A DNA stretch of 36,377 bases from a virus, in IMG/VR virus record IMGVR_UViG_3300018428_000078, positions 1 to 36,377 of that record; one strand, written 5' to 3'. Shown one piece after another: positions 2,538 through 35,145 of this stretch. A model generated the notes under the pieces. It searched no databases and had not been told where the DNA came from. It was given only the letters and a program-made list of their open reading frames with translations. The translations under genes were made by a program, and so were the position numbers. Each line of letters starts with the position of its first letter. The stretch's first letter is position 1.

Positions 2538-3243
2538 GCTAGAAAATAACTATCCCGAATTTGATCCCGACTCGGTTGCCATAGGTAACTTGAAGGACGA
2601 GGAGAAAATTAAGAAAAAGATTGTAGACGCAGGCATCGCCCATTTACAGAAGCAGTCAGAATTGTTTGAGAAAGAGCACAAAAAGGCTTGCTTGGACGCT
2701 GACTTAGGAAAGCTCTCTGCTATTGGGATCTTACACATAGAAGATGGCACTCGCGAAATTATAGACGCAACGCATAACGAAGCCGATTGCTTGGAGCGAT
2801 TTTGGCAGATTGTTGACGGCATAAAAGGGCGGGGGCAATGGGCTTTTGGTTGGAACATAGAAGGCTTTGATTTGCCGTTTCTTTTCGGACGCTCGCGTTT
2901 ATTAGGCGTACAATACGACCCTTATATGATTACAAATTATCGATATTTCGACAAATGCTTTGTAGATTTGCACAAGGTGTGGACATTTGGATCTTTCGGG
3001 AAATTTTGCTCACTGAAAAAAGCGAGCAAGGCATTGGGATATGAGCACAAGAAAATGGATGTCAAAGGCGGAAATTTCTACACTCATTGGGAGAGCACAG
3101 ATGTAGCGACAAAAGACAAGGCGAGGGAATATTTATTTGAGGACCTCGAGCAAACGATGGCGATTTGCTCTGCGACGCATGGATTAATTAAGGGAAGCAA
3201 CAAGGAAGGGATAATTGACGATGACGCATTCGGTACGAGATAA
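2485..3243 (+). CDS. DEDDy-type 3'-5' exonuclease
   Basis: This 252-residue protein is an RNase H-fold exonuclease. All three motifs are visible: Exo I FDIET (D6, E8), Exo II WNIEGFDLPFL (D129), and Exo III YLFED (Y216, D220), whose Tyr-x3-Asp spacing places it in the DEDDy branch with PolB-type proofreading domains. Between Exo I and Exo II lies a charged helical insert (about residues 15-75). There is no polymerase domain, so it acts as a free-standing nuclease. Downstream of an annealing protein it may process ends for recombination, as lambda Exo does for Beta, though its polarity would be 3'-5'. The ATG at 2485 is 4 codons before FDIET, leaving little doubt about the start. It overlaps the membrane gene by 53 bases. 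Confidence 0.85.
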   Translation: MSIIFDIETRPQTQILSELENNYPEFDPDSVAIGNLKDEEKIKKKIVDAGIAHLQKQSELFEKEHKKACLDADLGKLSAIGILHIEDGTREIIDATHNEADCLERFWQIVDGIKGRGQWAFGWNIEGFDLPFLFGRSRLLGVQYDPYMITNYRYFDKCFVDLHKVWTFGSFGKFCSLKKASKALGYEHKKMDVKGGNFYTHWESTDVATKDKAREYLFEDLEQTMAICSATHGLIKGSNKEGIIDDDAFGTR

Positions 3244-3523
3244 TAGCCTAGAGGCTTACTATGAACTAAAAGCAACTCTCAACATTAGGCAGGATGAAAT
3301 CTTATCAATTATTGAGAAATACCCCTTGTTAACTGATAGGGAAATATTAACTAAATATGGGGGGCGGGAAATGAATGAAGTGCGCCCTAGAATAACTGAG
3401 TTAATAAAAAAAGGATTGGTTAAAGAGGCAGGCGATAGCAAATGCCAGATTACAGGCAGGACAGTTCGCATATTGCAAGCAGTAGATTTCAATCACCCCG
3501 AACAAATGCAATTGCAGATATGA
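3221..3523 (+). CDS. Winged-helix DNA-binding protein
   Basis: This 100-residue protein has a helix-turn-helix core, LTDREILTKYG followed by NEVRPRITELIKKGLV, then a wing containing GDSKCQITGRTVRI. The pattern matches small phage winged-helix proteins in replication modules. I chose the ATG at 3221, ten bases after GGAAGGG, over a TTG at 3215 that is too close to it. The gene overlaps the exonuclease end and shares ATGA with the initiator gene. It may regulate the operon or help load replication proteins. Confidence 0.65.
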   Translation: MTHSVRDNSLEAYYELKATLNIRQDEILSIIEKYPLLTDREILTKYGGREMNEVRPRITELIKKGLVKEAGDSKCQITGRTVRILQAVDFNHPEQMQLQI

Positions 3524-4239
3524 AGATGCGTTTTACGGATATACATAAATGGAACAAGAGATGGTTTCGGGATTTAACCCCCGAAGCCAAATTGTTATTG
3601 TTGTATCTTTACGACTCTTGTGGGGACGCGGGCATTATTGAAATTGATCCAAGGAAATATGCGTTTGATACAGGTCTTGATCTGTTGAAGGAAAACAATC
3701 CCTTGGAGGAATTATTAGCTACAGATAAATTACAATACCATGATTCGCGTTATTTTATATTGCCGAAATTTATACGCTTTCAGTATCCCAAGGGATTGAA
3801 GCAGAATTACAATCCTCACATGGGCGTTTGGAAGGAGATAGAAAAGCACAACATCGACATAGATTCTATAGATATTCCAAGCCTTGACCAAGCCTTGACC
3901 AAGCCTTCCAAGATAAGGATAAAGATTAAGGATAGGACTATAATAGAAAGATTAGAATTATTATGGGCGAAATATACGGGAGGACTAAGCCCAAGATTAA
4001 AGATCGACGAGGATCGTTGGCACGCAATTAATGATTTGCTTGGCACATATTCATGGCTTGATCTAATTAGGACATGGAAGAAGGCAGGGGAAAGCGATTT
4101 CCTTACTAATCGATTAAATGTAAATCGGAACGGATGGAAAGCCAACTTTGATTGGATGCACAAGCCTGCAAATTACAGGAAGATAAGGGAGGGCAATTAC
4201 GACAACGAGAAAGGAATGGATTATACAAATGGATTCTGA
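3520..4239 (+). CDS. Replication initiator (DnaD/phage O-like)
   Basis: This 239-residue protein resembles phage replisome organisers. The N terminus (residues 10-60: WNKRWFRDLTPEAKLLLLYLYDSCGDAG) is the typical winged-helix start of such proteins. A basic linker (SKIRIKIKDR) follows, then a C-terminal helical domain with WAKYTGG, DEDRWHAI and WKANFDWM, also typical of DnaD/O-type initiators. The ATG at 3520 overlaps the upstream stop as ATGA; a second ATG lies two codons on. The next gene is a DnaC-type loader, so the pair parallels lambda O and P. The linker-coding DNA contains an 11-bp tandem repeat and an AT/purine-rich tract, described separately as a candidate origin. Confidence 0.7.
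   Translation: MKMRFTDIHKWNKRWFRDLTPEAKLLLLYLYDSCGDAGIIEIDPRKYAFDTGLDLLKENNPLEELLATDKLQYHDSRYFILPKFIRFQYPKGLKQNYNPHMGVWKEIEKHNIDIDSIDIPSLDQALTKPSKIRIKIKDRTIIERLELLWAKYTGGLSPRLKIDEDRWHAINDLLGTYSWLDLIRTWKKAGESDFLTNRLNVNRNGWKANFDWMHKPANYRKIREGNYDNEKGMDYTNGF
3879..3965 (+). other. Candidate replication origin inside the initiator gene
   Basis: AAGCCTTGACC occurs twice in tandem (3879-3889, 3890-3900) and a third time in part (AAGCCTT, 3901-3907). Each unit holds CTTG-AC-CAAG arms with its neighbour. Eleven is not a multiple of three, so the protein is not what is repeated. Directly downstream, 3910-3965 is AT-rich and almost all purine on this strand, with repeated AAGGATA-type words. Iterons followed by a purine-biased AT-rich stretch, inside the initiator gene, is the layout of lambda ori within O. 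Confidence 0.5.
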
Positions 4240-4975
4240 AAAATACATAGATGATACAAGTGTTTCATGGAGGCAAAATCAAACGAGGACAATAACAAGG
4301 CAATGCGAAGAAACAGGCGAGGATTTTCAGCTCACGCAAACACTATGGGGGAATACATGGTTCCCCGATATTAGATATTGCGATGCAGTATTAGAAAGAA
4401 AAGAGCAAGAGGAAGAGGACGCACGAAAAGCATTGTTGAAAAAGCGTATGCAGGAATCAGCCGAAGCTTGGATGGAGGAGAATGTGCCACCAATATATAG
4501 AGAGGAGCTAGATAGAAGTTACCCTATAAATTGGAAAGCTCACGATAAAGCTATGCAAGTAGACGGCTCGATCATATTAATAGGCAATACACGCAAAGGC
4601 AAAACTAGGACGGCTATGGAGCTTTTAAAGAGATATGCGTTGGCGGGCGAGCGACCTATTTTTAAAACTGCTGAGGCGATGGCGGGAGCTTTGGGTGAAG
4701 CTATGAGCAAAACTCGAATGGCTCACAACGGATTGATACATCAATATAGCAAAGTTAAAATTCTGATCGTTGACGATTTAGGCAAGGAAAACATGAGTAA
4801 GCGAGTGCAGAGCGATATGTTCGAGATCTTCAACGCCCGATTTGAGCACAAGCTTAAAACTATTATTACAACTAATTGGGTAGGGGATGCCTTGATCGAA
4901 AGATATCCCGACAAGGAATTAGCAAAACCATTGATTGCGAGATTCAGAGAATTTTGCGAACCCATTAGATTTTGA
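4229..4975 (+). CDS. DnaC-like helicase loader (AAA+ ATPase)
   Basis: This 248-residue protein has the AAA+ core of DnaC/IstB-type loaders: Walker A GNTRKGKT (119-126), Walker B ILIVDDLG (178-185), sensor 1 TTN (214-216) and a C-terminal arginine pair in ARFREFCEPIRF (R238/R240) as a likely arginine finger. The N-terminal 90 residues are charged and probably contact the helicase. Replicative helicase itself is not in the window, so the phage likely recruits the host DnaB. The gene overlaps the initiator by 11 bases, and the pair is the functional equivalent of lambda O/P. Confidence 0.85.
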   Translation: MDSEKYIDDTSVSWRQNQTRTITRQCEETGEDFQLTQTLWGNTWFPDIRYCDAVLERKEQEEEDARKALLKKRMQESAEAWMEENVPPIYREELDRSYPINWKAHDKAMQVDGSIILIGNTRKGKTRTAMELLKRYALAGERPIFKTAEAMAGALGEAMSKTRMAHNGLIHQYSKVKILIVDDLGKENMSKRVQSDMFEIFNARFEHKLKTIITTNWVGDALIERYPDKELAKPLIARFREFCEPIRF

Positions 4976-5256
4976 AAATTTACAATCCACCATTTGAGTT
5001 TCTGGCAGAAGCAAGCAAGGGTGCAGAAATTTACAAAATCGATTTGTTAGGGGATGCAGGAAACGGGGAATGCAGTTGTCCTAATTATCAATATGTTAAA
5101 AAGCCATTGTTAAACAAAGGACACGCACAAAGTTCTATGACAAGATGCAAACACATATTGCAAGCTCGTAACATTGCCTTGACCTTAATTATTAAGGCAG
5201 TAAACGAGGAACATGGAAAGCGAAGTAAAATTTTGGATAAATTGTGTCCCACCTAA
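4972..5256 (+). CDS. Small SWIM-type zinc-finger protein
   Basis: This 94-residue protein carries C34-x-C36 and C59-x-H61 (ECSCPNYQ and TRCKHILQA), the CxCx(n)CxH signature of SWIM zinc fingers, which bind DNA or proteins and in some cases act in recombination. The only plausible start is TTG at 4972, overlapping the loader's stop (TTGA), so translation is probably coupled; no clear SD is present. It lies between the loader and RusA and so belongs to the replication/recombination operon. Confidence 0.65.
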   Translation: MKIYNPPFEFLAEASKGAEIYKIDLLGDAGNGECSCPNYQYVKKPLLNKGHAQSSMTRCKHILQARNIALTLIIKAVNEEHGKRSKILDKLCPT

Positions 5257-5644
5257 AACCACGCACCAATCTGCTCTTAGAATATTCAAAACTAAAAACG
5301 GCAGGCAATTTGTAGGAAGAGACAAGAAGGGATTAAAAGTAGCAAACGAATTGCAAATACTATTGTTACCTTTTAAACCTGCCCAACCAATAAATGAACC
5401 TGTAGAACTTTTTGTTTCTTGGTTTTATCCATATCGTAAAAGCGAGCCGAAGAAAAACAGGAGCAAGCTTATACCATGTGCAACTCGACCCGATGCGGAC
5501 AATATATTAAAGGGGTTAATTGATGCAATGACTGCAGTAGGTTTTTGGCGGGACGACAATTTAATTTTTAAGCTACATTTTGAAAAATATTTTTCGTCTA
5601 CAAGCGGAATAGGCGTCAAGATCCGCATAAATAAAGGGCTTTAG
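5213..5644 (+). CDS. rusA: RusA-like Holliday junction resolvase
   Basis: This 143-residue protein (E. coli RusA is 120) matches the RusA family. The catalytic block PDADNILKGLIDAM (D94, D96, D104) is followed by GFWRDDNLI (D114, D115), the expected order of metal-binding aspartates, and a lysine follows in LHFEKYF. RusA resolves four-way junctions, and its position after the annealing and replication genes fits a role in finishing replication forks and recombination. The ATG follows GAGGA. The gene overlaps the SWIM gene by 44 bases and is the last of this operon. Confidence 0.9.
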   Translation: MESEVKFWINCVPPKTTHQSALRIFKTKNGRQFVGRDKKGLKVANELQILLLPFKPAQPINEPVELFVSWFYPYRKSEPKKNRSKLIPCATRPDADNILKGLIDAMTAVGFWRDDNLIFKLHFEKYFSSTSGIGVKIRINKGL

Positions 5645-5652
5645 CCCGAAAA
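5636..5652 (+). terminator. Weak hairpin at the end of rusA
   Basis: GGGCT and AGCCC flank two bases, overlapping the rusA stop, and are followed by an A run then a T run (5658-5662). The stem is short, so termination is only possible, but the location just before a promoter fits an operon boundary. Confidence 0.3.
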
Positions 5653-5681
5653 AACTATTTTTAAAAAAGTGTTCTTAGGTA

Positions 5682-5710
5682 TTGACTTTATGCGGATTCT
5701 CGCATAATCT
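5682..5710 (+). promoter_or_regulatory. Sigma70-type promoter with operator in the spacer
   Basis: TTGACT (5682-5687) and TAATCT (5705-5710) are 17 bases apart. The spacer holds ATGCGGATTCTCGCAT (5690-5705), with ATGCG/CGCAT inverted arms. The block from 5674 to 5697 matches 8051-8073 almost exactly, so this is a shared regulated promoter. A further ATCCGCAT half-site lies upstream at 5621-5628, inside rusA. Confidence 0.75.
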
Positions 5711-5740
5711 TAATTACATAATCTTAATTATTTAATCTCA

Positions 5741-5764
5741 AATCAACAACCAACAACAACAATG
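5741..5764 (+). promoter_or_regulatory. (CAA)n leader before the 55-residue gene
   Basis: The 5' leader is composed only of A, C and one T, in CAA-like triplets running into the ATG (AACAACAACAATG). No SD is present. A near copy precedes the next start at 5955. Such sequence cannot fold and may serve as a ribosome landing site. Confidence 0.5.
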
Positions 5765-5929
5765 AGAAACACTAGAATATTCCTTCGCCACCAAACAATA
5801 CAAGCCTTGAATTTCCTTAATGGATGGAACGACCAACAATCAGCCGACCACATAAGAATACTTTTTGAAAATCACGGCACAACTCTTGAAGAAATATACG
5901 CAGATTGCACAACTCGCCTTATAGCTTAA
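5762..5929 (+). CDS. Small unknown protein (55 aa), first gene of the operator-controlled unit
   Basis: The reading frame runs from ATG at 5762 to TAA at 5927-5929. The protein is polar and helical (RNTRIFLRHQTIQALNFL, then LFENHGTTLEEIYADC) with no known motif. It starts directly at the end of the CA-rich leader downstream of the 5682 promoter. It uses C-ending codons (TTC, CTT, ATA mix) in the manner of highly expressed genes here. Likely an early host-directed protein, but this rests only on position. Confidence 0.55.
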   Translation: MRNTRIFLRHQTIQALNFLNGWNDQQSADHIRILFENHGTTLEEIYADCTTRLIA

Positions 5930-5957
5930 ATCAACAACACAACCAACAACAACAATG
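5928..5957 (+). promoter_or_regulatory. Second (CAA)n leader
   Basis: A near copy of the 5741-5764 leader sits between the 55-residue gene and the tiny membrane peptide, ending again in AACAACAACAATG, with no SD. Duplication of the leader inside one transcript suggests it works at translation, not transcription. Confidence 0.5.
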
Positions 5958-6029
5958 ATCGCACTACTCTTAATCTTTCCACTTCTTACAATCGCATCTG
6001 CACTTTGGGCAATCGGAGATGTTTATTAA
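5955..6029 (+). CDS. Tiny hydrophobic peptide (24 aa)
   Basis: From ATG 5955 to TAA 6027-6029. Residues 2-20 are almost all hydrophobic (IALLLIFPLLTIASALWA), enough for one membrane span, and the end is GDVY. It follows a CAA leader identical in style to that of the previous gene, which argues it is translated. The gene ends 25 bases before the next start. It could be a membrane micropeptide or a leader peptide. Confidence 0.45.
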   Translation: MIALLLIFPLLTIASALWAIGDVY

Positions 6030-6054
6030 TCAACTACAACAGGAGACAAAAACA

Positions 6055-6273
6055 ATGAGAATCCAAAACACAACACACTTAAAACCTATAGCATCGGACT
6101 GCGACCAATGGAGCGGTTTGCAGAAATGCAATCGTTTAGAGGAATTAATTACTCACGCATACATTCAATATCAAGAAGAGATGTGTGCGATGGGAAATAC
6201 GATTCTCGCTGACAATTTTTTTAATATACTAAAGCGATTAAATTTTCAGCCGAACCACAACGAAAAGGGATAA
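6055..6273 (+). CDS. Small unknown protein (72 aa)
   Basis: I chose ATG 6055, preceded by CAGGAGA at 6038-6044, over an ATG at 6019 that lies within the tiny upstream peptide gene. The protein has three cysteines (SDCDQW, QKCNR, EEMCAMG) and a helical middle (LEELITHAYIQYQEEM). No family is recognised. It lies in the early unit of small genes. Confidence 0.55.
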   Translation: MRIQNTTHLKPIASDCDQWSGLQKCNRLEELITHAYIQYQEEMCAMGNTILADNFFNILKRLNFQPNHNEKG

Positions 6274-6556: not shown

Positions 6557-6584
6557 TTGCCATATCCCGACATCCGCATAAGAT
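6557..6584 (+). promoter_or_regulatory. Promoter with inverted copy of the shared operator
   Basis: TTGCCA (6557-6562) and TAAGAT (6579-6584) are 16 bases apart. The spacer ends with GACATCCGCAT (6569-6579), the exact reverse complement of 11 bases of the operator at 8066-8076. A CA-rich leader (about 6592-6612) follows. It would drive the tiny peptide at 6626 and the cyclotransferase-like gene. Confidence 0.6.
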
Positions 6585-6625
6585 AGTTAAATATCAACCA
6601 CAACAACAATAAATCAACACAAGAC

Positions 6626-6715
6626 ATGATTATAGAAATTATATTATTAGCGTACCTATTTGTAGGAATTAATCTACCGATGTATCTATCAATGAGGGAC
6701 AACAATGACAACTAG
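6626..6715 (+). CDS. Tiny membrane peptide (29 aa)
   Basis: From ATG 6626 to TAG 6713-6715. Residues 2-20 (IIEIILLAYLFVGINLPMY) would span a membrane, with a polar tail (SMRDNNDN). It lies behind a CA-rich leader and overlaps the start of the cyclotransferase-like gene at 6705, so translation is probably coupled. Like the peptides at 5955 and 13351, it could be a real micropeptide or a translational leader. Confidence 0.45.
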   Translation: MIIEIILLAYLFVGINLPMYLSMRDNNDN

Positions 6716-7139
6716 GATATTTGTATACGGAACTCTTAAAAAGGGATTACACAACCATCGTTTGCTTGCGGATCAAAAGTTCATTTGTAAGGCGGAAACG
6801 GATGATTTAAAAGTCATGCACTGCATGAACATTCCATTCCTTTATAATGTAGGCGGATATTATTACAAAAATCTCCTGCACCGCGGACATCATGTAACAG
6901 GAGAAGTTTATGATTTGGACGATTGTGCTTTACGCGAGATTGATCGCCTAGAAGGACATCCAAGATGGTACCGCAGGCAACCAATAAGGCTACGATCGGG
7001 GCACACAAGCAATCACAAATCCGAGCCTAAGTATTACTATCGATTTATGGCGGAAGCCTATTTTATGACAATGGATAGCGACGAAATGCAAGGAGGGTTA
7101 CCTATATTACAAACCAATCAAGTTAGGAGGACATTCTAA
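6705..7139 (+). CDS. Gamma-glutamylcyclotransferase-like (GGCT/AIG2) protein
   Basis: This 144-residue protein starts with VYGTLKKG (residues 7-14), the substrate-binding loop of the GGCT/AIG2 fold. GEVYDLDD (66-73) and IDRLEGHPRWYRR (79-91) follow, where E83 matches the catalytic glutamate of gamma-glutamylcyclotransferases. Such enzymes cleave gamma-glutamyl amides to 5-oxoproline and a free amine. The gene overlaps the tiny peptide by 11 bases and follows a GAGGG site. The amidoligase and glutamine amidotransferase genes are 1.0 and 2.0 kb downstream under the same operator type. Their joint presence suggests gamma-glutamyl chemistry on a peptide or polymer. Confidence 0.8.
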   Translation: MTTRIFVYGTLKKGLHNHRLLADQKFICKAETDDLKVMHCMNIPFLYNVGGYYYKNLLHRGHHVTGEVYDLDDCALREIDRLEGHPRWYRRQPIRLRSGHTSNHKSEPKYYYRFMAEAYFMTMDSDEMQGGLPILQTNQVRRTF

Positions 7140-7607
7140 ATGACGACAATAATAACAGAAAATAACGCTAGAGCATTGTGCGGGTGGAAAGGGCGTGAGG
7201 AAATTAATGAATCAGTGCACGCAATTTTGCATTCTAAGGAGCAACTGAAAAAAAGAAACAATGCCGATATGACTAGAACAATACATGATGAGAAAGTAAT
7301 CGATGGGTTACGCTATTGGACAAATCAAATTGACCATCATTGTCGGATCTTGCGAAACATTGAAACAATATACATCAAAGCGTATCCTAAGATTACAGAT
7401 AATAAATGTGTAGGAAAAGAACTTTTCAAAAGTGCAATAAAGAAAGCAAAAAGACATTACGAAAATTTGCAGGCAAAGTATGACGCTCGCGATTATTACG
7501 CTACAGAATATCAAAAAGCGTTTAATAGCGGAGAGCCTACAGAGTATTGGCGCGACCGAATCAGAATTATAGATTCGGAAATAGAAAACTTAGAAAAAAA
7601 GAACTAA
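7140..7607 (+). CDS. Unknown charged helical protein (155 aa)
   Basis: The ATG begins directly after the cyclotransferase-like stop. The protein is basic and mostly helical, with a likely coiled coil in the second half (KSAIKKAKRHYENLQAKYDA, then RIRIIDSEIENLEKK). Residues such as DHHCRIL and a W near the start do not form a known motif. It belongs to the same transcript as the cyclotransferase. Its role may be structural or regulatory; I cannot place it. Confidence 0.6.
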   Translation: MTTIITENNARALCGWKGREEINESVHAILHSKEQLKKRNNADMTRTIHDEKVIDGLRYWTNQIDHHCRILRNIETIYIKAYPKITDNKCVGKELFKSAIKKAKRHYENLQAKYDARDYYATEYQKAFNSGEPTEYWRDRIRIIDSEIENLEKKN

Positions 7608-7753
7608 TGGCTACATTTATGGGTTGGGCGAGTTATTCAACGGACGAAAGATATTGTCCATATTGCAAAGTGTTTTACGATGTACAAGATTCCCATGAAC
7701 ACGACGATTGTAAATCTGACGAAGAAGAAATAGAAAGTGAAGATGATGAGTGA
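7607..7753 (+). CDS. Small zinc-finger-like acidic protein (48 aa)
   Basis: The stop of the previous gene and this ATG overlap by one base (TAATG). The protein contains CPYCKVFYDVQDSHEHDDC, a candidate CxxC...HxH...C metal site, then a very acidic tail (EEEIESEDDE). An upstream TTG in the same frame is inside the previous gene and less likely. Acidic-tailed small phage proteins often bind or mimic DNA-binding partners, but there is no direct evidence here. Confidence 0.55.
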   Translation: MATFMGWASYSTDERYCPYCKVFYDVQDSHEHDDCKSDEEEIESEDDE

Positions 7754-7967
7754 GGCGATACAAACGGAAGATCGAGTAAATCAAGTTTTCAAAGAGCAGA
7801 TAAAACTTTATGAAGTCGCGATTGAATTGTGTCATCGACACGGGAAACCTAAAAGTAAGATTTTAAAAACTCTGGCTGACATATTGCGTGACCGATTAAT
7901 TCAATGTCAGAAGGATTATATTGAATGGAACGAAAAGTTAGAAAATAAAACAAAAACAGAAAAATAA
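7743..7967 (+). CDS. Unknown small helical protein (about 75 aa)
   Basis: Two adjacent ATGs (7743, 7746) overlap the end of the preceding gene; either could be used, and a GTG at 7737 is also in frame. The protein is helical throughout, amphipathic and basic at the end. No motif is known. A strong terminator follows 22 bases after the stop, so it is the last gene of the cyclotransferase transcript. Confidence 0.5.
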   Translation: MMSEAIQTEDRVNQVFKEQIKLYEVAIELCHRHGKPKSKILKTLADILRDRLIQCQKDYIEWNEKLENKTKTEK

Positions 7968-7989
7968 ATTTGTTGGTTGATTGATACGC

Positions 7990-8030
7990 AAGGCGGGAGC
8001 CCGCTAAAATAAAGGGCTTCCGCCTTTTTT
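7990..8030 (+). terminator. Strong intrinsic terminator
   Basis: AAGGCGGGAGCCC pairs with GGGCTTCCGCCTT over an 11-base loop, thirteen pairs with a single G-U, followed by six Ts. It ends the cyclotransferase transcript and insulates it from the amidoligase promoter 30 bases on. Confidence 0.9.
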
Positions 8031-8058
8031 ATGCTACGAAAAAAAATTAACTAAGGTA

Positions 8059-8086
8059 TTGACTTATGCGGATGTCTGCATATTAT
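8059..8086 (+). promoter_or_regulatory. Amidoligase promoter with shared operator
   Basis: TTGACT (8059-8064) and TATTAT (8081-8086) are 16 bases apart, with the quasi-palindrome ATGCGGATGTCTGCAT (8066-8081) between. The block TAAGGTATTGACTTATGCGGAT nearly repeats that of the 5682 promoter. A C/A-rich leader (about 8110-8131) leads to the amidoligase ATG without an SD. Confidence 0.75.
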
Positions 8087-8131
8087 AGTTATTATATTTC
8101 TTTTAATTATTCAAATCCAACCAATCAAAAA

Positions 8132-9079
8132 ATGAACGAACAACAAGCAACTCAAGCAATCAAGAACATCACATTTGGCATCGAAATCGAATGCATGTTT
8201 CCGCTCGATATCGCAAGACAACACAACATCGTAACTACCGCATCAAATTGGAGTAACCCAATATGGATGAACCACATTGAACACGAGGGTGAATCTTTAG
8301 AATTTTGGGGGGCATCTTGGGACCAAACCATTACCCGCAGACAGGGCTACACCCCAATCGAATTTAACTCGAAAATTTTACGGGGCGAAGAAGGATGGAA
8401 GCAAATCAAATTATTCTTTACTTGGCTTGCTTCTGTAGGAGCCAAAGTTGACCGCTCTTGCGGATTACATATACATTTAGGCTTTAAGGAAATGGCACGG
8501 GGGCTTGATGTAGATGAAGCCATTGAGGTACTCCTCCGCACATTGAAATTCGGCAATTGCGCCAAGACTGCATTATATGCACAAGGCGGATCAGCACACC
8601 GCTACTTCCATAGCAACTACGCTAGAGCAAGATTTGACCGCAGGGCATCTGAGGTAACCGCATCGCATGGAGCGGTTCCAACTTTAGGCGGGAAATTTTA
8701 TTTTATCAATACTACCAACATCGCTGACGGCGGAATTAATGGACGCAAGGCAACTATTGAATTTCGGGCATTTGCAGGGACTACCAATTATCTTAAAGTG
8801 TTTAATCATTTAGCTACTGCTCTTACCATTGCTTACACAGGCATGGTAATCAAAAGATCATCATGGGAGGGTGCCAATCAAACTGCTGACAAGGGACTTA
8901 AGGCTTTTAATGCACTTGCTTCATACATGAGCCGATCACAATTCTTACGCCAATTCCCTACATTCGAAGAAAACAAACGCAAGATGTGGAAGATCGGTCG
9001 GAAGATGGCTACTAAATTCCAAAACACCGCACGCAGGTGGTCAGCACGAGGCGAAATCAATCTTGAGCTTTACAAATAA
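8132..9079 (+). CDS. Amidoligase (COOH-NH2 ligase of the GCS/Amidoligase_2 type)
   Basis: This 315-residue protein has the marks of the amidoligase family, which is related to glutamate-cysteine ligase and joins a carboxylate to an amine using ATP: FGIEIE at 15-20 (metal-binding glutamates), PIEFNSKIL at 75-83, CGLHIHLGF at 110-118, and TIEFRAFAGTTN at 208-219. I start at ATG 8132; an earlier in-frame reading would begin inside the promoter. It avoids ATA and favours ATC and other C-ending codons more than its neighbours, which hints at high expression. The next gene is a class II amidotransferase, and a cyclotransferase-like gene lies upstream. Together they look like a peptide- or polymer-modifying pathway. 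The substrate is unknown. Confidence 0.85.
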   Translation: MNEQQATQAIKNITFGIEIECMFPLDIARQHNIVTTASNWSNPIWMNHIEHEGESLEFWGASWDQTITRRQGYTPIEFNSKILRGEEGWKQIKLFFTWLASVGAKVDRSCGLHIHLGFKEMARGLDVDEAIEVLLRTLKFGNCAKTALYAQGGSAHRYFHSNYARARFDRRASEVTASHGAVPTLGGKFYFINTTNIADGGINGRKATIEFRAFAGTTNYLKVFNHLATALTIAYTGMVIKRSSWEGANQTADKGLKAFNALASYMSRSQFLRQFPTFEENKRKMWKIGRKMATKFQNTARRWSARGEINLELYK

Positions 9080-9103
9080 TAACAACAACGGAGGAACTAA
9101 AAA

Positions 9104-9817
9104 ATGTGCGTAATAATTCATTGCCCAACTAATAAACGACCAAGCGAAAAAACTTTGCGGAAATGTGAAAAGGAAAACCCCCACGGAATAGGGATAATAA
9201 CTAAGGGCGACCAATCCATGTTTCACATCAATAAGGGAATTAGTTTCGACGCATTGCTTAAAATCGTCAAAGCGAGCACAGGAGAGCTTGCAATACATTT
9301 CAGATATGCAACTGCGGGCGGACAATCAGAAGAGCTATGTCATCCCTTTCCATGCACGAAAGGAGTTAACAATTGGCTCGATTATAAAGCTACTGATATT
9401 TTGATGACCAATGGGACATGGATGAATTGGTCACAGGCATATCTCGTTCTCAAGAAAACACACGGGATGAAAGCCCTTAAAGGTAAAATGTCCGATACTC
9501 GAGCAATGGCTCACATAATAGCAGAAACAGGCAATCATTCATGGTTGAAACACATTACTGATCGTCATCCCAAGCACAAGCGTGTAAGATCCTTGTATTG
9601 CACAAAGCGTAGCAAGAAACAATTTTATCGATACGGCGAATGGCAAGAGCACGAAGGTTGCTTTTATTCCAACATGAGATGGCACACCCCCGAATCAATT
9701 GCGCAAAAACTTTTTCGCAAGCCTTGGCAACCTAGAGCAGAACCCAAAGATGTTCTAGGATATCACGAGCAACAAGATTTCAGCGATTGGATTGGAACCC
9801 ACTACAATAAATATTAG
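9104..9817 (+). CDS. Class II glutamine amidotransferase (Ntn hydrolase)
   Basis: The protein begins Met-Cys, so Cys2 would be the N-terminal nucleophile after methionine removal. The class II signature continues with NPHGIG (26-30 region), HFRYATAGG (65-73, substrate-binding Arg), CHPF (79-82), TNG (102-104, oxyanion Asn-Gly) and SDT (130-132). Such enzymes release ammonia from glutamine or act as peptidases and amidohydrolases. At 237 residues it has no synthetase domain, so it must work with a partner, most likely the amidoligase 24 bases upstream. A good SD (GGAGG, 9090-9094) follows another AACAACAAC leader. Confidence 0.85.
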   Translation: MCVIIHCPTNKRPSEKTLRKCEKENPHGIGIITKGDQSMFHINKGISFDALLKIVKASTGELAIHFRYATAGGQSEELCHPFPCTKGVNNWLDYKATDILMTNGTWMNWSQAYLVLKKTHGMKALKGKMSDTRAMAHIIAETGNHSWLKHITDRHPKHKRVRSLYCTKRSKKQFYRYGEWQEHEGCFYSNMRWHTPESIAQKLFRKPWQPRAEPKDVLGYHEQQDFSDWIGTHYNKY

Positions 9818-9819
9818 GA

Positions 9820-9849
9820 TTGACGCATATCGAAAATCCGCAGATTATA
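9820..9849 (+). promoter_or_regulatory. Promoter for the HTH gene, possibly giving a leaderless mRNA
   Basis: TTGACG (9820-9825) and ATTATA (9844-9849) are 18 bases apart. The spacer holds ATCCGCA (9836-9842), the reverse complement of the core of the shared operator. The expected RNA start is near 9856, at or next to the ATG at 9855, so this transcript would have no leader, like lambda cI from PRM. Confidence 0.5.
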
Positions 9850-9854
9850 AAAAT

Positions 9855-10187
9855 ATGAAAACAGAATATGTAAGACAGATAATAGACAAGACCGCTCGTC
9901 TTATTGCTAGGAAAGACGCAAAAATGGCTGACCTTGCGCGTTTCTTAAACAAGAATTGGAATCAATGCCACGAATGGTTAATTAAGAAAAAATACGAGCC
10001 TTCAGCCGAAGTTGTTCTTGGAATGCTACATTTTGTAGCCGTCCATGATAAAAGCCACGGGGAAGTTACTATTGATTCAGATGGCACTTATTATTTCGAT
10101 GACCGAGCAATGAGCGACAAGGAGAAAGAACTCTGGCAGGAAAACAATCACCTTAAAGCGATACTTGCGGGGAGGATGAATGGATAA
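9855..10187 (+). CDS. Candidate HTH regulator (110 aa)
   Basis: Residues about 15-60 (TARLIARKDAKMADLARFLNKNWNQCHEWLIKKKYEPSAE reading in parts) have the layout of an XRE/Cro-like helix-turn-helix: a helix, MADLARFLN as helix 2, then NQCHEWL as recognition helix, then a conserved-looking PSAEVVLGML. The rest is a short beta segment (GEVTIDSDGTYYFDD) and a helix. The only ATG is at 9855, with no SD; an in-frame TTG at 9792 lies inside the amidotransferase gene. Its own promoter holds an operator half-site, so it may control the four operator promoters. That is inference. Confidence 0.55.
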   Translation: MKTEYVRQIIDKTARLIARKDAKMADLARFLNKNWNQCHEWLIKKKYEPSAEVVLGMLHFVAVHDKSHGEVTIDSDGTYYFDDRAMSDKEKELWQENNHLKAILAGRMNG

Positions 10188-10482: not shown

Positions 10483-11085
10483 ATGAGAGTTGCGATACAA
10501 TGCGTTCCTAGCAGATCACCGCAAGTTGAGAATATTACTAATTTCATCAAGAGCATTGGTTTAATATGCAACGCTTACATGGATCACGACAGGAAAGGAC
10601 CGATGTGGAATTTCAAAAGGATTCTGATTAATGAGCAATACGATGAGCCATTACTTGTTTTGCAAGATGATGTAATTTTTAATCGAAGTTTTGTTTATTC
10701 AATCCATGAGATACTTGCCCACATGGAAAAAAAGAAATGGGGGTGCATCAGCCTGTTCAGTCCGCCACGGAAATATTATTTAGAGCAAGCTAATAAAAGG
10801 GTCAAATATTACAAAGAAAAGGATTACCTATGGCAACCTGCCATCCTAATGTCAAAAGCCTTTAGGGAGGGCTTGTTGGCGATGCAATACACTACAAAGC
10901 ACGATGATGAATATGTAGGAGAATATGCAAAACGCACAAAAGATTATGTGAGAGTAACAATCCCTTCTTTAGTTAGACATGATCTAAAATTGAAAAGCAC
11001 ATTAGGCACGGGAGCTAAAATCGGAAAAGTTGTTAGAGATACACAAATATTTCATCCTGTTCCCGAGGGTTATTTTAATGAATAA
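10483..11085 (+). CDS. Putative glycosyltransferase (GT25-like)
   Basis: This 200-residue protein has PLLVLQDDVIFNRSF near residues 56-70, a strand followed by an acidic DD motif as in GT-A transferases (EDD/DxD), and a downstream ISLFSPP / LWQPAILMSKAF section like that of LPS-type (GT25) phage enzymes. The gene starts right after the preceding stop. It is the second glycosyltransferase-like gene in the window, after the one at 438. It sits next to the methyltransferase and could act on DNA, but a surface-glycan role is as likely. Confidence 0.5.
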   Translation: MRVAIQCVPSRSPQVENITNFIKSIGLICNAYMDHDRKGPMWNFKRILINEQYDEPLLVLQDDVIFNRSFVYSIHEILAHMEKKKWGCISLFSPPRKYYLEQANKRVKYYKEKDYLWQPAILMSKAFREGLLAMQYTTKHDDEYVGEYAKRTKDYVRVTIPSLVRHDLKLKSTLGTGAKIGKVVRDTQIFHPVPEGYFNE

Positions 11086-11602
11086 GAACATCGACATAAT
11101 GGAAGTAGGCAAGGCACCAAACTATGATATATTGTACACGGATCCGCCTTGGGAAAACCGAATGGTTAAATGGTTCGAAACTAAAATGGCAAAAGACACG
11201 GGTGCAATGCGTCCGCAGAATGACATAGATAGTATTTTAAATAAATTGTCTCTTTTAGCGGACACGGAAAAACCGTGCTTTGTAGAATATGGTCAAAGGG
11301 GTTTTGAGCGAGTTATTCAGCAAATGGAAAATTCTGGTCATAAATGTATGCAATGCGTAGCACGATTGCAGAAAAATAATAGTCCGTTTGTAATCATGGC
11401 GTTCAATGCAAATGTAGAAATCCCAAATTTGCAAGGGTTCGATATTGTAACTGCAATTGTTAAAAATTTTAAATCACCCATTGTATGGGATCCATTTGCG
11501 GGCATCGGTGCGACTCGCAAAGCAGTCGAAGCAGGCGGGGGAAAATATATTGGTTACGAGATGAACAAAGCAAGATTTGATAAAATGAATTATGAAAATT
11601 AA
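11078..11602 (+). CDS. Small DPPW-type adenine methyltransferase
   Basis: This 174-residue protein has DILYTDPPWENR (residues 18-27; DPPW is the catalytic motif of N6-adenine and MT-A70-like enzymes). It then has IVWDPFAGIGATRKA (135-148), the SAM-binding loop, in the order catalytic motif first, SAM motif second, as in beta-class enzymes. At 174 residues it is close to a minimal enzyme with no target-recognition domain. I start at ATG 11078, with CGAGGG upstream, because the earlier reading frame is inside the glycosyltransferase gene. It probably protects phage DNA from restriction or marks it for regulation. Confidence 0.75.
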   Translation: MNKNIDIMEVGKAPNYDILYTDPPWENRMVKWFETKMAKDTGAMRPQNDIDSILNKLSLLADTEKPCFVEYGQRGFERVIQQMENSGHKCMQCVARLQKNNSPFVIMAFNANVEIPNLQGFDIVTAIVKNFKSPIVWDPFAGIGATRKAVEAGGGKYIGYEMNKARFDKMNYEN

Positions 11603-12176
11603 ATGTGAATACACCAAATTAGTTGCAATTGATGAATTGCGTCCACATCCCAATAACGCCAATACGCATTCGCCAGAACAATTGGAGCGACTTGCAAAAA
11701 TATTGAAATATCAAGGTTGGAGGAAACCGATTGTTGTTAGCAAGCTTTCGGGTTATATTGTAAGCGGACACGGCAGATTGTTAGCATCTAGAATAGCAGG
11801 ATTTTCGGAAGTACCTGTAAGCGAGCAAGAATATGACAATGAAAAACAAGAATTAGCGGATCTTATCGCGGATAACAAGATTGCTGAACTATCAGAATGG
11901 CAGGGAATTAAATTAAATGACGAAATCGCGTCATTGCGATCAAGCCTGCCAGATGTTGAGCTAACAGGATTTGATGATCTATCTATAGGGGAACTAGCGG
12001 AAAGTCTTTTCAGCCCTACTATGGAGCCCGCAATCGGCAACTCTCAAATTAATCCGAATGATATAAATGCAGTCAGCACTCGATTGTCTTCGCAATTTGA
12101 TGGCAATTCACAAAATTTACAAAGTGTTACATGTCCTTCATGTGGAGATGATTTCCACATAAATGTCGCAAAATGA
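11592..12176 (+). CDS. ParB-like (ParB/Srx fold) protein with C-terminal zinc knuckle
   Basis: Residues 11-66 hold the ParB/sulfiredoxin-like core (LVAIDELRPHPNNANTHS, QLERLAKIL, PIVVSKLSGYIVSGHGRLLAS), with the GHGR box that binds nucleotide in this fold. The middle is helical; the C terminus ends with CPSCGDDFHI (181-190), a half zinc ribbon. ParB-like phage proteins often sit next to methyltransferases and terminases. Here one is coupled with the methyltransferase (11-base overlap) and the PAPS-reductase-like gene (ATGA overlap), so the three probably act together on DNA. Confidence 0.75.
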   Translation: MKIKCEYTKLVAIDELRPHPNNANTHSPEQLERLAKILKYQGWRKPIVVSKLSGYIVSGHGRLLASRIAGFSEVPVSEQEYDNEKQELADLIADNKIAELSEWQGIKLNDEIASLRSSLPDVELTGFDDLSIGELAESLFSPTMEPAIGNSQINPNDINAVSTRLSSQFDGNSQNLQSVTCPSCGDDFHINVAK

Positions 12177-13342
12177 TTTCCTACCTAAAGCACAATGTGT
12201 TTGAAGGTGCAAAAGCACGGCTTAGATATTTGTTTGAAGAGTTCGATGAATTAGTCATCTGTTTTAGTGGCGGAAAGGATTCCACTGCATTATTAAATGT
12301 CGCATTAATTGTTGCGGAAGAAATGGACCGGTTGCCGATGCCCGTTATGTTCTTGGATCAAGAGGCAGAATGGCAAACAGTGATTGATTACACAAGGATC
12401 ACAATGACAGATCCGCGAGTAAAACCTTATTGGTTACAAATTCCGATCCGATTATTCAATGCTACATCAGCAGAAAATACCTGGTTAAATTGTTGGGATG
12501 AAAACGAGGAATGGATGCGTGAAAAAGAAGAGATTTCTATTAAAGAGAATGTTTATGGAACAAATAGATTCCATGCAATGTTTCCAGCGTTCCTCAAATA
12601 TCATTACCCAAACAAGAAAGTTGCAATGCTAACAGGCATTAGAGCAGAAGAGAGTCCTAATAGGCGTGCAGGGCTAACTAATAATGCCACATACAAACAC
12701 ATAACTTATGGCAAAATCTACGATGCTAAATTAGAGCATTACAATTTCCACCCTTTGTATGATTGGGGTTGGAGGGATGTTTGGAAAGCTATACACGATC
12801 ACAATTGGCCGTATGCTAAAACATACGACTATTATTATCGTTATGGCATTGCACCAAGCAAAATGAGAATCAGCAATCTACATCATGAGACGGCAGTGCA
12901 TCAGTTATATTACTTGCAGGAGATCGAAGGCGATACATGGGATAAACTAACAAAAAGATTAGGTGGCATTAATCAAGCTAGGCATTTTACACGAACAGAA
13001 ATGTTCAAATGCGAAAAACTACCATATATGTTTAAGGATTGGGCAGAATACAGAAATTATTTGCTCTCGAAATTTATTCCCGAAGAAAATCAAGAACCAT
13101 TTCGTAAAAGATTTGCGAACATGGATGATTGGTACAAGGAAATGAATAAAGAAAAAATCCATAAAGTTTACCAAGCACAAATCACTACAATCTTAATGAA
13201 CGATTTTGAGTTTACTCGCCTTGCAAACTTCACAAGCAACAATCAATCAATCAATTATAGAAAATGGAAAAACGGGCAAGTATTACCATCGAACTTAACT
13301 GAGCGAGATCTCGAATTTATACCCAAAGATAAAAATATATAA
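12173..13342 (+). CDS. PAPS reductase/IbrA-like adenine-nucleotide hydrolase
   Basis: This 389-residue protein carries the PP-loop SGGKDST (32-38) of the PAPS reductase/ATP pyrophosphatase superfamily. GIRAEESPNRR lies further on, as in IbrA-like proteins, followed by a long C-terminal helical part (about residues 230-389). Two ParB-like genes flank it, the second resembling IbrB. PP-loop enzymes activate a substrate by adenylation and transfer sulfur or cleave a phosphosulfate bond; the exact reaction of phage IbrA-like proteins is not known. I see no Fe-S cluster cysteine pattern. Confidence 0.75.
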   Translation: MISYLKHNVFEGAKARLRYLFEEFDELVICFSGGKDSTALLNVALIVAEEMDRLPMPVMFLDQEAEWQTVIDYTRITMTDPRVKPYWLQIPIRLFNATSAENTWLNCWDENEEWMREKEEISIKENVYGTNRFHAMFPAFLKYHYPNKKVAMLTGIRAEESPNRRAGLTNNATYKHITYGKIYDAKLEHYNFHPLYDWGWRDVWKAIHDHNWPYAKTYDYYYRYGIAPSKMRISNLHHETAVHQLYYLQEIEGDTWDKLTKRLGGINQARHFTRTEMFKCEKLPYMFKDWAEYRNYLLSKFIPEENQEPFRKRFANMDDWYKEMNKEKIHKVYQAQITTILMNDFEFTRLANFTSNNQSINYRKWKNGQVLPSNLTERDLEFIPKDKNI

Positions 13343-13350
13343 AATGTTAT

Positions 13351-13422
13351 ATGACTTCATTGGGCTTACTAACTCTTACTTGTGCCTTATTAATTCTAAT
13401 ATGTTGGCTTTATCATGACTAA
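13351..13422 (+). CDS. Tiny membrane peptide (23 aa)
   Basis: ATG 13351 to TAA 13420-13422. The middle is hydrophobic (LLTLTCALLILICWLY), ending HD. The next gene starts at 13415, inside it. It repeats the arrangement at 5955 and 6626. No SD is obvious, so translation is uncertain. A different frame (13344) also gives a short peptide, less hydrophobic. Confidence 0.35.
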   Translation: MTSLGLLTLTCALLILICWLYHD

Positions 13423-14098
13423 ACGGAAGACTGCCTCCCAAATTGCAAGGACATTAGATGTCCTTTTAGAAACGCTGGAAGAGCTTGAAGAAAACGAGCA
13501 AATTGAAGAAATTGAGCTTGTTCGCGAAATATTACATCGGGCACATCCAATCAATCAGCCAATTGATCGAGTCAAATGGGTAAACATAGATGAAGTAGAG
13601 GCAAATGATTATAATCCCAATAGCGTAGCATCTAAAGAAATGCAATTGTTGTACACTTCGATATTACATGATGGATATACTCAGCCTGTAGTAACTATTA
13701 GAGATCAAGATCGAGGCAAATATGTAATAATTGACGGATTCCACAGATATTTTACTGCGAAAAGCAATCCCGATATATTAGAAAGAAACAAGGGGAAATT
13801 ACCAATAGTTGTATTAGAAAAAGATATAAATGACAGAATGGCAAGTACGGTAAGGCACAACAGAGCTAGAGGATCTCATTCTGTAAACGGAATGTCTAAC
13901 ATGGTGTTTAAAATGTTAGATAATGGATGGAGTGATGACCGCATTTGCAATCATTTAGGCATGGATCCCGAAGAGCTTGTCAGACTGAAGCATATAACGG
14001 GATTTAGTAAACTATTTGAAAACGCAGAATATGCAAAAGCTTGGGTATCAAGAAACCAAATCAAATTAGCAAAAGAATACGACAGAAAGCCAGAATGA
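13415..14098 (+). CDS. IbrB-like ParB-domain protein
   Basis: This 227-residue protein starts with a charged helix (residues 1-40). A ParB-like core follows: WVNIDEVEANDYNPNSV, YTQPVVTIRD, then YVIIDGFHRYFTA (DGFHR replaces GHGR), and RHNRARGSHSV, hallmarks of IbrB-type proteins. IbrA and IbrB were first described in E. coli as paired regulators and occur together in many phages. Here they are 73 bases apart, with a tiny membrane peptide between. The C-terminal part (LGMDPEELVRLKHITG) looks like an HTH that could read DNA. The stop overlaps the next start (ATGA). Confidence 0.7.
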   Translation: MTKRKTASQIARTLDVLLETLEELEENEQIEEIELVREILHRAHPINQPIDRVKWVNIDEVEANDYNPNSVASKEMQLLYTSILHDGYTQPVVTIRDQDRGKYVIIDGFHRYFTAKSNPDILERNKGKLPIVVLEKDINDRMASTVRHNRARGSHSVNGMSNMVFKMLDNGWSDDRICNHLGMDPEELVRLKHITGFSKLFENAEYAKAWVSRNQIKLAKEYDRKPE

Positions 14099-34451: not shown

Positions 34452-34910
34452 ATGACTATTGAAAAATACGGCGACGCTGCAAATATTGATTTTGGTACAG
34501 ACCAAAAAGGAGTAGGGGCGGGTTTAGACATCGTAACTTCCTACTCAGTTGAGGAAACTTATGCGACCGAATTGTTTCTAAAAGATGCAACAGGCGCAAC
34601 CGTTGGGCTTGTGCAAGGAGACGCTAGAACCACAGGAACGGTTTCGGGATATGGTACAGGGAGTACGGTAACTTTAGGCGCGTCATTTGATAATGATTTA
34701 GGAGTCGGTGATGCAAATTGTGCCGTGTCCTCAGTTCGTGCAAGTGGCTCCAATGAAGATTTTACAAATTACGAGTTGAGCTTCAATGCGTTTCAAGGTG
34801 TAACCATTACTTGCGACGCAAAAGCAAAACACGACATCGAGCCTTTGCAAGACGCACCAAGGAACGACGATTTGTCCGAGCTTGCTTACCTTGTCAGCGA
34901 ACTACTCTGA
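34452..34910 (+). CDS. Tail tube-like protein that leads into an S74-type domain
   Basis: The first 115 residues (SYSVEETYATELFLKDATGATVGLVQGDARTTG, ELSFNAFQGVTI) show the strand pattern of a siphophage tail tube protein. The sequence then reads CDAKAKHDIEPLQ, the start of a Peptidase_S74 intramolecular chaperone, which normally begins SDxRxKxxI; here cysteine replaces serine. The frame ends 21 residues later in TGA (34908-34910), after CTA CTC. The +1 frame continues as the rest of an S74 domain. An AAGG SD precedes the ATG. The zero-frame product might be the main tube protein. Confidence 0.55.
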   Translation: MTIEKYGDAANIDFGTDQKGVGAGLDIVTSYSVEETYATELFLKDATGATVGLVQGDARTTGTVSGYGTGSTVTLGASFDNDLGVGDANCAVSSVRASGSNEDFTNYELSFNAFQGVTITCDAKAKHDIEPLQDAPRNDDLSELAYLVSELL

Positions 34911-35145
34911 AAGTGAATTGTTAGAAAAAGTAAGGCAATTAAAGCCTGTACAATTTCGATACAATGAAGATTTCGACCCCGACTGCGTATTGCGGGCAGG
35001 GTTTGTCGCACAACAAGTGCAAAAAGTATTTCCCGAATTAGTTAAGGAAATCGATGGATATTTAAGAGTGAACACGACCGCCTTGGGCGGATATATAGAT
35101 CGAGCATTACATGAACATAAGAAACGCAAACTCCGCGCTTGCTAA
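34882..35145 (+). CDS. S74-type chaperone domain (reached by +1 frameshift)
   Basis: The frame encodes SELLEKVRQLKPVQFRY, AGFVAQQVQKVFPELV and a C-terminal helix (NTTALGGYIDRALHEHKKRK), the core of an endosialidase-type intramolecular chaperone. These domains help trimeric proteins fold and often cut themselves off. There is no good start codon: only TTG at 34882, without an SD. The preceding frame ends with the first S74 motif. At the stop, CTC TGA A, skipping one base gives SELL-ESELLEKVRQL, a smooth join. Frameshifted expression or a sequencing error explains this better than a separate gene. Confidence 0.6.
   Translation: MLTLSANYSESELLEKVRQLKPVQFRYNEDFDPDCVLRAGFVAQQVQKVFPELVKEIDGYLRVNTTALGGYIDRALHEHKKRKLRAC

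Follow-up and report, generated by a model that had tools for sequence, protein, structure and literature searches.

The stretch of DNA analysed here, the whole of IMG/VR record IMGVR_UViG_3300018428_000078 (36,377 bases; hereafter the window), represents, by gene annotation, all or much of the genome of a tailed phage, with a replication block (DnaD/DnaC-like loaders and RusA) and genes for both terminase subunits, the portal, a protease, the capsid and the tail. In the interval from the replication block to the terminase genes stands a set of three enzyme genes, which we find to be a compact version of a known phage cassette:

6705-7139, + strand: gamma-glutamyl(amine) cyclotransferase (GGCT) with predicted catalytic residue E83; identified by PF06094, phrog_2520, the GGACT structures in the PDB and alignment.
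8132-9079, + strand: amidoligase, a carboxylate-amine ligase of the glutamine synthetase (GS) fold, 315 aa; identified by PF12224, an AlphaFold (AF2) model, the GS fold and alignment.
9104-9817, + strand: stand-alone class II glutamine amidotransferase (GAT) of the N-terminal nucleophile (Ntn) type with Cys2, 237 aa; identified by profile, structure and alignment.

The amidoligase matches PF12224 with an E-value of 2.3e-9 (37.9 bits, cut-off 22). Its nominal open reading frame (ORF) spans 8066-9079; because position 8066 falls within the operator palindrome TATGCGGATGTCTGCATA (8065-8082), and because the amidoligase genes of relatives begin downstream of the corresponding promoter, with their alignment starting at the ATG at 8132, we moved the start to 8132, and the protein therefore has 315 residues. 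By the motif definitions of the GS-fold ligase superfamily (PMC2588565), the GhExE motif of strand 1 is found as G16-I-E18-I-E20 on a strand spanning residues 14-24, and the acidic residues D64 and E77 of strands 2 and 3 and H113-I-H115 of strand 4 ([HD]x[NH]) are invariant in 29 sequences; the strand 6 motif Ex[RK]x2D is represented by E210-F-R212, its terminal D being absent, and R157 is present. These motif residues and R157 are conserved in the alignment. The AlphaFold model (mean pLDDT 95.2) superposes on glutamine synthetase with Z 13.5 and a root-mean-square deviation (rmsd) of 5.2 over 247 residues, and its fold matches (Foldseek, VIA-align) are glutamine synthetases, YbdK, GmaS and gamma-glutamylcysteine ligases, with PafA also among them. 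We conclude that the protein is a predicted ATP-dependent amide-forming enzyme of the GS fold.

The GAT taken alone stays below the cut-off of Pfam GATase_6 (E-value 0.0015, 19 bits, cut-off 27); a profile of its relatives matches the structures of GFAT, GlmS and PurF at about 1e-9 to 1e-5, GFAT at 1.7e-9. Across 23 sequences the M1-C2 start and residues R67, H80, N103-G104 and D131 do not vary. We take R67, N103-G104 and D131 to be the equivalents of the residues with which GlmS holds glutamine, the counterparts of R67 and D131 holding its amino-acid end. The AlphaFold model has a mean pLDDT of 75 and is uncertain at about residues 70-130 and at the C-terminus; it matches the folds of EgtC, GlmS, GFAT and PurF (EgtC: Z 11.1, rmsd 4.0 over 168 residues; GlmS: Z 11.0). 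The GGCT is recognised by PF06094 (E-value 4.9e-18, 66 bits, cut-off 22.8), and its closest solved structures are those of GGACT/A2LD1 (2kl2, 1vkb and 3jub, at about 1e-9 to 1e-7). GGACT cleaves gamma-glutamyl-epsilon-lysine. Y8-G-T-L11 and E83 are invariant across ten phage GGCT sequences, and E83 aligns with the Glu of GGACT that we take to be its catalytic residue.

An earlier reading of this DNA from its letters (the original prediction) had proposed these three enzymes, and the profile matches, conserved motifs and invariant residues bear out the amidoligase and the GGCT-like enzyme with E83. Its description of the GAT as an amidotransferase with a Cys2 nucleophile and no synthetase holds in its first part, Cys2 being invariant and the fold Ntn, and gives way in its second, as the gene directly upstream, the amidoligase, is the constant partner of the GAT and so likely its synthetase. 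It had also read strong expression of the amidoligase from codon use. Similarity to the codon use of the major capsid gene is indeed highest for the amidoligase among the 16 other genes (0.629, against 0.682 for the capsid gene with itself), but with the tail gene at 0.604 and the GAT at 0.602 the margin is small and lends the claim weak support.

The partnership of amidoligase and GAT is best seen beyond the window. A nucleotide search against phages gave no match, leaving the window with no close database relative, and scans of IMG/VR with single proteins as queries gave none either. We surveyed IMG/VR with profiles of relatives, collecting 80 GAT-like, 80 amidoligase and a further 80 GAT-clade loci, and GTDB genomes, collecting 50 loci. 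An amidoligase is present at 75 of the 78 GAT-clade viral loci. Of 161 pairs, 159 have the amidoligase upstream of the GAT and in the same orientation. Clustering at 60% amidoligase identity leaves 49 groups, in every one of which the two genes share a strand; the median gap is 34 nt, and 36 of the gaps are within 100 nt. Viewed from the other side, a GAT stands at 45, and a GGCT at 13, of the 80 amidoligase-anchored viral loci. We conclude from gene content and order that the association of amidoligase and GAT is far beyond chance. The full order of GGCT, small genes, amidoligase, GAT and a gene for a 110-aa protein is kept in five relatives (L091, L093, L094, L095 and L222); amidoligase identity between the window and its relatives is 38-60%, as measured for four of them. 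A GGCT accompanies the amidoligase and GAT in the window's relatives, in Arthrobacter phages and in Pseudomonas phages. The functional linkage that the original prediction had proposed for the enzymes is thus upheld by the 75 of 78 loci and by the order of the trio in the five relatives; the two outcomes that it had named as telling against it, a lack of amidoligase or Ntn folds and amidoligase relatives that never occur with the other enzymes, were not seen, as GS and Ntn folds were found and the relatives' amidoligases do occur with both partners.

At 68 loci, for example in Phage C75C1 and in MW202828, GAT and GGCT form a single ORF; such fusions are enriched in the surveyed set because the query alignment contained two fusion proteins. 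An amidoligase lies upstream of the fusion at all 55 loci with at least 3 kb of upstream sequence, and in 18 of 18 clusters at 70% identity. Eight of these 55 amidoligases are found by the canonical profile and 47 by the profile of a divergent family only, which was trained on 14 sequences from the same fusion loci; the search that found the fusion loci made no use of the upstream gene. The divergent family aligns with canonical amidoligases in hhalign (probability 96.8, E-value 2.4e-10), while the two members scanned gave no Pfam match. Examples of such divergent GS-fold amidoligases upstream of fusions lie at 4218-5942 in locus L006 and 2779-3738 in locus L067.

The trio is accompanied in the window by a series of predicted control elements and by a candidate regulator:

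5682-5712, + strand: promoter P1 (TTGACT) with operator palindrome TATGCGGATTCTCGCATA at 5689-5706; precedes small ORFs.
6557-6585, + strand: promoter P2 (TTGCCA) with operator TATCCCGACATCCGCATA at 6563-6580; precedes the GGCT gene, inverted-repeat partner of the 8065 site.
7992-8030, + strand: intrinsic terminator, an 11-bp stem (7992-8002/8014-8024) followed by T6, read from the sequence.
8059-8086, + strand: promoter P3 (TTGACT, -10 TATTAT) with operator TATGCGGATGTCTGCATA at 8065-8082; kept upstream of the amidoligase in relatives.
9855-10187, + strand: 110-aa protein, helix-turn-helix (HTH)-like by eye, candidate regulator; always adjoins the GAT in close relatives.

The operator palindromes at 5689, 6563 and 8065 sit within what appear from sequence to be sigma-70-like promoters. 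Because the terminator precedes P3, the amidoligase and GAT would form a transcription unit separate from that of the GGCT. The operator pattern has 8 loose matches in the window against 1.75 expected, and the shared operator is supported beyond this count because the palindrome is conserved in relatives: TATGCG-N6-CGCATA stands upstream of the amidoligase in L091, L011, L093, L094 and L222, and as a variant in L095, and in L091 the same palindrome also stands upstream of the GGCT gene. The proposal that the trio lies under promoters with the same operator is therefore well founded, given the palindromes at 6563 and 8065 and their conservation in close relatives. An operator-like site (9812-9829) also precedes the gene for the 110-aa protein, as such sites do in several relatives. 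Pfam and PDB searches gave no support for an HTH in this protein, and the window's only HTH_3-like match, itself below the cut-off, belongs to the gene for the small terminase subunit. Leaders of the CAACAACCAACAACAACAATG type recur at 5744-5768, 5937-5961 and 6037-6061, at starts that have no clear Shine-Dalgarno sequence.

Four further small genes lie at the start of the GGCT gene or between it and the amidoligase:

6626-6715, + strand: 29-aa hydrophobic peptide MIIEIILLAYLFVGINLPMYLSMRDNNDN, overlapping the start of the GGCT gene; like peptides at the equivalent position in L091, L094 and L222.
7140-7607, + strand: 155-aa protein with no function assigned; homologue adjoins the GGCT gene in L093; not a constant part.
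7610-7753, + strand: 47-aa zinc-ribbon-like protein (CxxC...HxxC); L093 homologue lies elsewhere; not a constant part.
7737-7967, + strand: helical protein of about 75 aa; homologue only in L011; not a constant part.

The genes between GGCT and amidoligase vary between phages; they are real ORFs, some with homologues. The suggestion that the small zinc-candidate and helical proteins are extra parts of the system fails on this point, since neither is conserved across relatives. Hydrophobic peptides of 25-29 aa overlie the start of the GGCT gene in four phages (the window, L091 at 4702, L094 at 4849 and L222 at 1400), and a further short hydrophobic ORF lies at about 5957.

Beside the enzyme set, a glycosyltransferase-like gene (10483-11085, phrog_854) has a distant homologue in L095, and none was found in L091 or L011. 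It is followed by a short N6/N4 methyltransferase-like ORF (11030-11602), matched by the profile in its C-terminal part only, by an overlapping pair of genes for ParB-like and PAPS-reductase/DUF3440 proteins (11592-13342), which resembles IbrB/IbrA and is kept in L011, L091 and L095, and by a second ParB-like gene (13415-14098). In the late tail region an ORF at 34882-35145 carries a Peptidase S74 (endosialidase chaperone) domain. The window, possibly incomplete, showed no integrase.

Relatives of the window amidoligase in bacterial genomes (the 50 GTDB loci) belong mostly to Verrucomicrobiota and Planctomycetota; phage markers like those of the window occur at 17 of the 50, with ParB as the sole marker in 8 of these 17, and the terminase matches include Verrucomicrobia phage P8625. 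From these sequence relationships, a host in Verrucomicrobiota or Planctomycetota is likely.

Several known phages carry the set. The phiEco32/LUZ24/RIO-1-like podophages, such as Pseudomonas phage TL, have a PF12224 amidoligase, a class II GAT and a GGCT in one early region, as does the window, and in phiEco32/LUZ24-like phages the set has been called a peptidoglycan modification cassette (PMC5498523, PMC3890496). Cassettes of the phiEco32/LUZ24 type have two further members, an ATP-grasp enzyme and a COOH-NH2 ligase (PF14395). Searches of the window and five relatives, whose records may be incomplete, found neither PF14395, which the same method detects in phage TL, nor the ATP-grasp families PF08443 and PF13535. 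In Arthrobacter Laroyevirus phages (Wheelbite, Salgado and Laroye; PMC5513430) the same three enzymes occur, GGCT, amidoligase and GAT being three successive genes in Wheelbite; the sequences are distant from those of the window, at about 20-24% identity. OM43 phages carry an amidoligase and a GAT (PMC10580990). The planctomycete phage Phage-ZRK32 has a GAT, an amidoligase and a GGCT, a likeness drawn from its gene list, and its host group matches the one inferred here; in its report these genes, together with one for glutathione synthase, are said to be related to Pseudomonas genes and are read as nitrogen metabolism (PMC10945688). In bacteria, Iyer, Burroughs and Aravind (2008) described ligases of the same GS-fold family, of GCS2 size, next to either an AIG2 cyclotransferase or a protein resembling glutamine amidotransferases, and suggested a role in making peptides (PMC2588565); there the two partners occur in different bacterial groups, whereas in the window all three enzymes stand together in a phage. 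The phage examples to which the original prediction pointed do exist, the cassette having been annotated in phages repeatedly. New here are the shared operator, the amidoligase hidden upstream of the fusions and the likely Verrucomicrobiota/Planctomycetota host. EgtA/EgtC (ergothioneine) and MurT/GatD (cell-wall amidation) likewise join a ligase with a glutaminase-like partner, an analogy of mechanism only, as GatD is a class I enzyme and MurT is Mur-ligase-like, other families than those of the window.

We tentatively suggest, putting the chance a little short of even, that the amidoligase and GAT form a two-subunit glutamine-dependent amide synthetase, with the GGCT as an accessory enzyme that removes gamma-glutamyl groups. 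The GAT would hydrolyse glutamine at Cys2 and supply ammonia to the amidoligase, which would activate a carboxylate with ATP and join it to this ammonia or to another amine; the GGCT, whose own promoter nearby carries the same operator, would free amines of their gamma-glutamyl groups by releasing these as 5-oxoproline, thereby recycling or editing gamma-glutamyl products. The whole set would be expressed from operator-controlled sigma-70-like promoters. Ammonia supply is favoured because the GAT profile is nearer to GFAT, GlmS and PurF. Several points weigh against this amide synthetase. No substrate or product for these sets was found in the literature consulted; 26 of the 80 amidoligase-anchored loci have neither GAT nor GGCT in their flanks, some of which are short; and most amidoligase-GAT pairs have no GGCT nearby. 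Amidoligase and GAT show weak co-divergence (r 0.196, the highest permuted value being 0.186), and no fusion or complex of the two was seen. EgtC is an Ntn hydrolase of ergothioneine biosynthesis rather than an ammonia-supplying glutaminase, and the pairing of amidoligase with GAT fits equally well a chemistry in which gamma-glutamyl groups are put on and taken off. In such a scheme the ligase would, like gamma-glutamylcysteine ligase, EgtA and GmaS, link glutamate through its gamma-carboxyl to an amine; an EgtC-like GAT and a GGACT- or BtrG-like GGCT would take the glutamyl group off again, so that it would serve as temporary protection or as a tag. The GAT has EgtC among its best structural matches (Z 11.1), YbdK, GmaS and gamma-glutamylcysteine ligase are among the fold matches of the amidoligase, the solved structures closest to the GGCT are those of GGACT, the GAT-GGCT fusions unite two gamma-glutamyl-acting domains in one protein, and R67 and D131 of the GAT would also suit gamma-glutamyl amides. 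Yet the GAT profile is nearer to the ammonia-channelling GFAT, GlmS and PurF, a list in which EgtC does not appear, and the GGCT is missing from most pairs, so that we consider this chemistry possible but the less probable of the two.

The target is a separate question that either chemistry leaves room for. The peptide part of the host envelope is the likeliest, and even so a doubtful one: the set would alter or amidate cell-wall peptides against superinfection. This has been predicted for the same enzyme set (PMC5498523 and PMC10580990, citing Iyer and Hardies), and the amidation of cell-wall glutamate by MurT/GatD is a precedent for a glutaminase with a ligase (PMC3267633), but we found no experiment in the literature consulted on the cassette, and the window has neither the ATP-grasp enzyme nor the second ligase on which the published scheme rests. 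It is unlikely that the enzymes instead boost host nitrogen assimilation as auxiliary nitrogen and amino-acid metabolism, as proposed for Phage-ZRK32, which carries a GAT, amidoligase, glutathione synthase and GGCT and for which the available part of the report describes growth effects with nitrate or ammonium (PMC10945688). Genome relatives of the window amidoligase do lie mostly in Verrucomicrobiota and Planctomycetota; however, bacterial hosts normally possess glutamine synthetase, that part of the report ties the growth effects to no single gene, and the tight amidoligase-GAT pairing and the GAT-GGCT fusion suggest a specific product. Least probable by a wide distance is a PafA/Pup-like tagging, in which the amidoligase would join a small phage protein, such as the acidic 47-aa protein, to targets. 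PafA is among the fold matches, and this small acidic protein with its Glu end sits between the genes, but its L011 homologue ends in NND, its L093 homologue is longer and placed elsewhere, the other close relatives show no homologue, and no Pup-like ORF was found near this ligase family by Iyer et al. (PMC2588565). We rejected Pup-like tagging by this protein, as neither its C-terminus nor its position is conserved. Two other roles were also set aside: DNA hypermodification, as no gene for hydroxymethyl-pyrimidine or related synthesis was seen among the annotated ORFs, not every one of which was scanned, and anti-phage defence, as neither the enzyme trio nor the candidate regulator had a match in PADLOC.

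A broader reading, which we regard as doubtful and as less probable than the envelope target, sees amidoligase and GAT, with or without GGCT, as a single system widespread among phages. At its simplest it would consist of amidoligase and GAT; one branch would have the GAT-GGCT fusion and an amidoligase missed by Pfam, and phages of Verrucomicrobiota and Planctomycetota would have the compact trio under operator control. Its task would be a dedicated and so far undescribed modification, by an amide or a gamma-glutamyl group, of some macromolecule of the host or the phage. The genes of the set recur in phages of very different hosts, and their comparison defines a core (amidoligase and GAT), an optional third enzyme and fused forms. 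A vague prediction is thereby turned into direct questions: whether the ligase uses the nitrogen of glutamine, and which molecule gains the amide.

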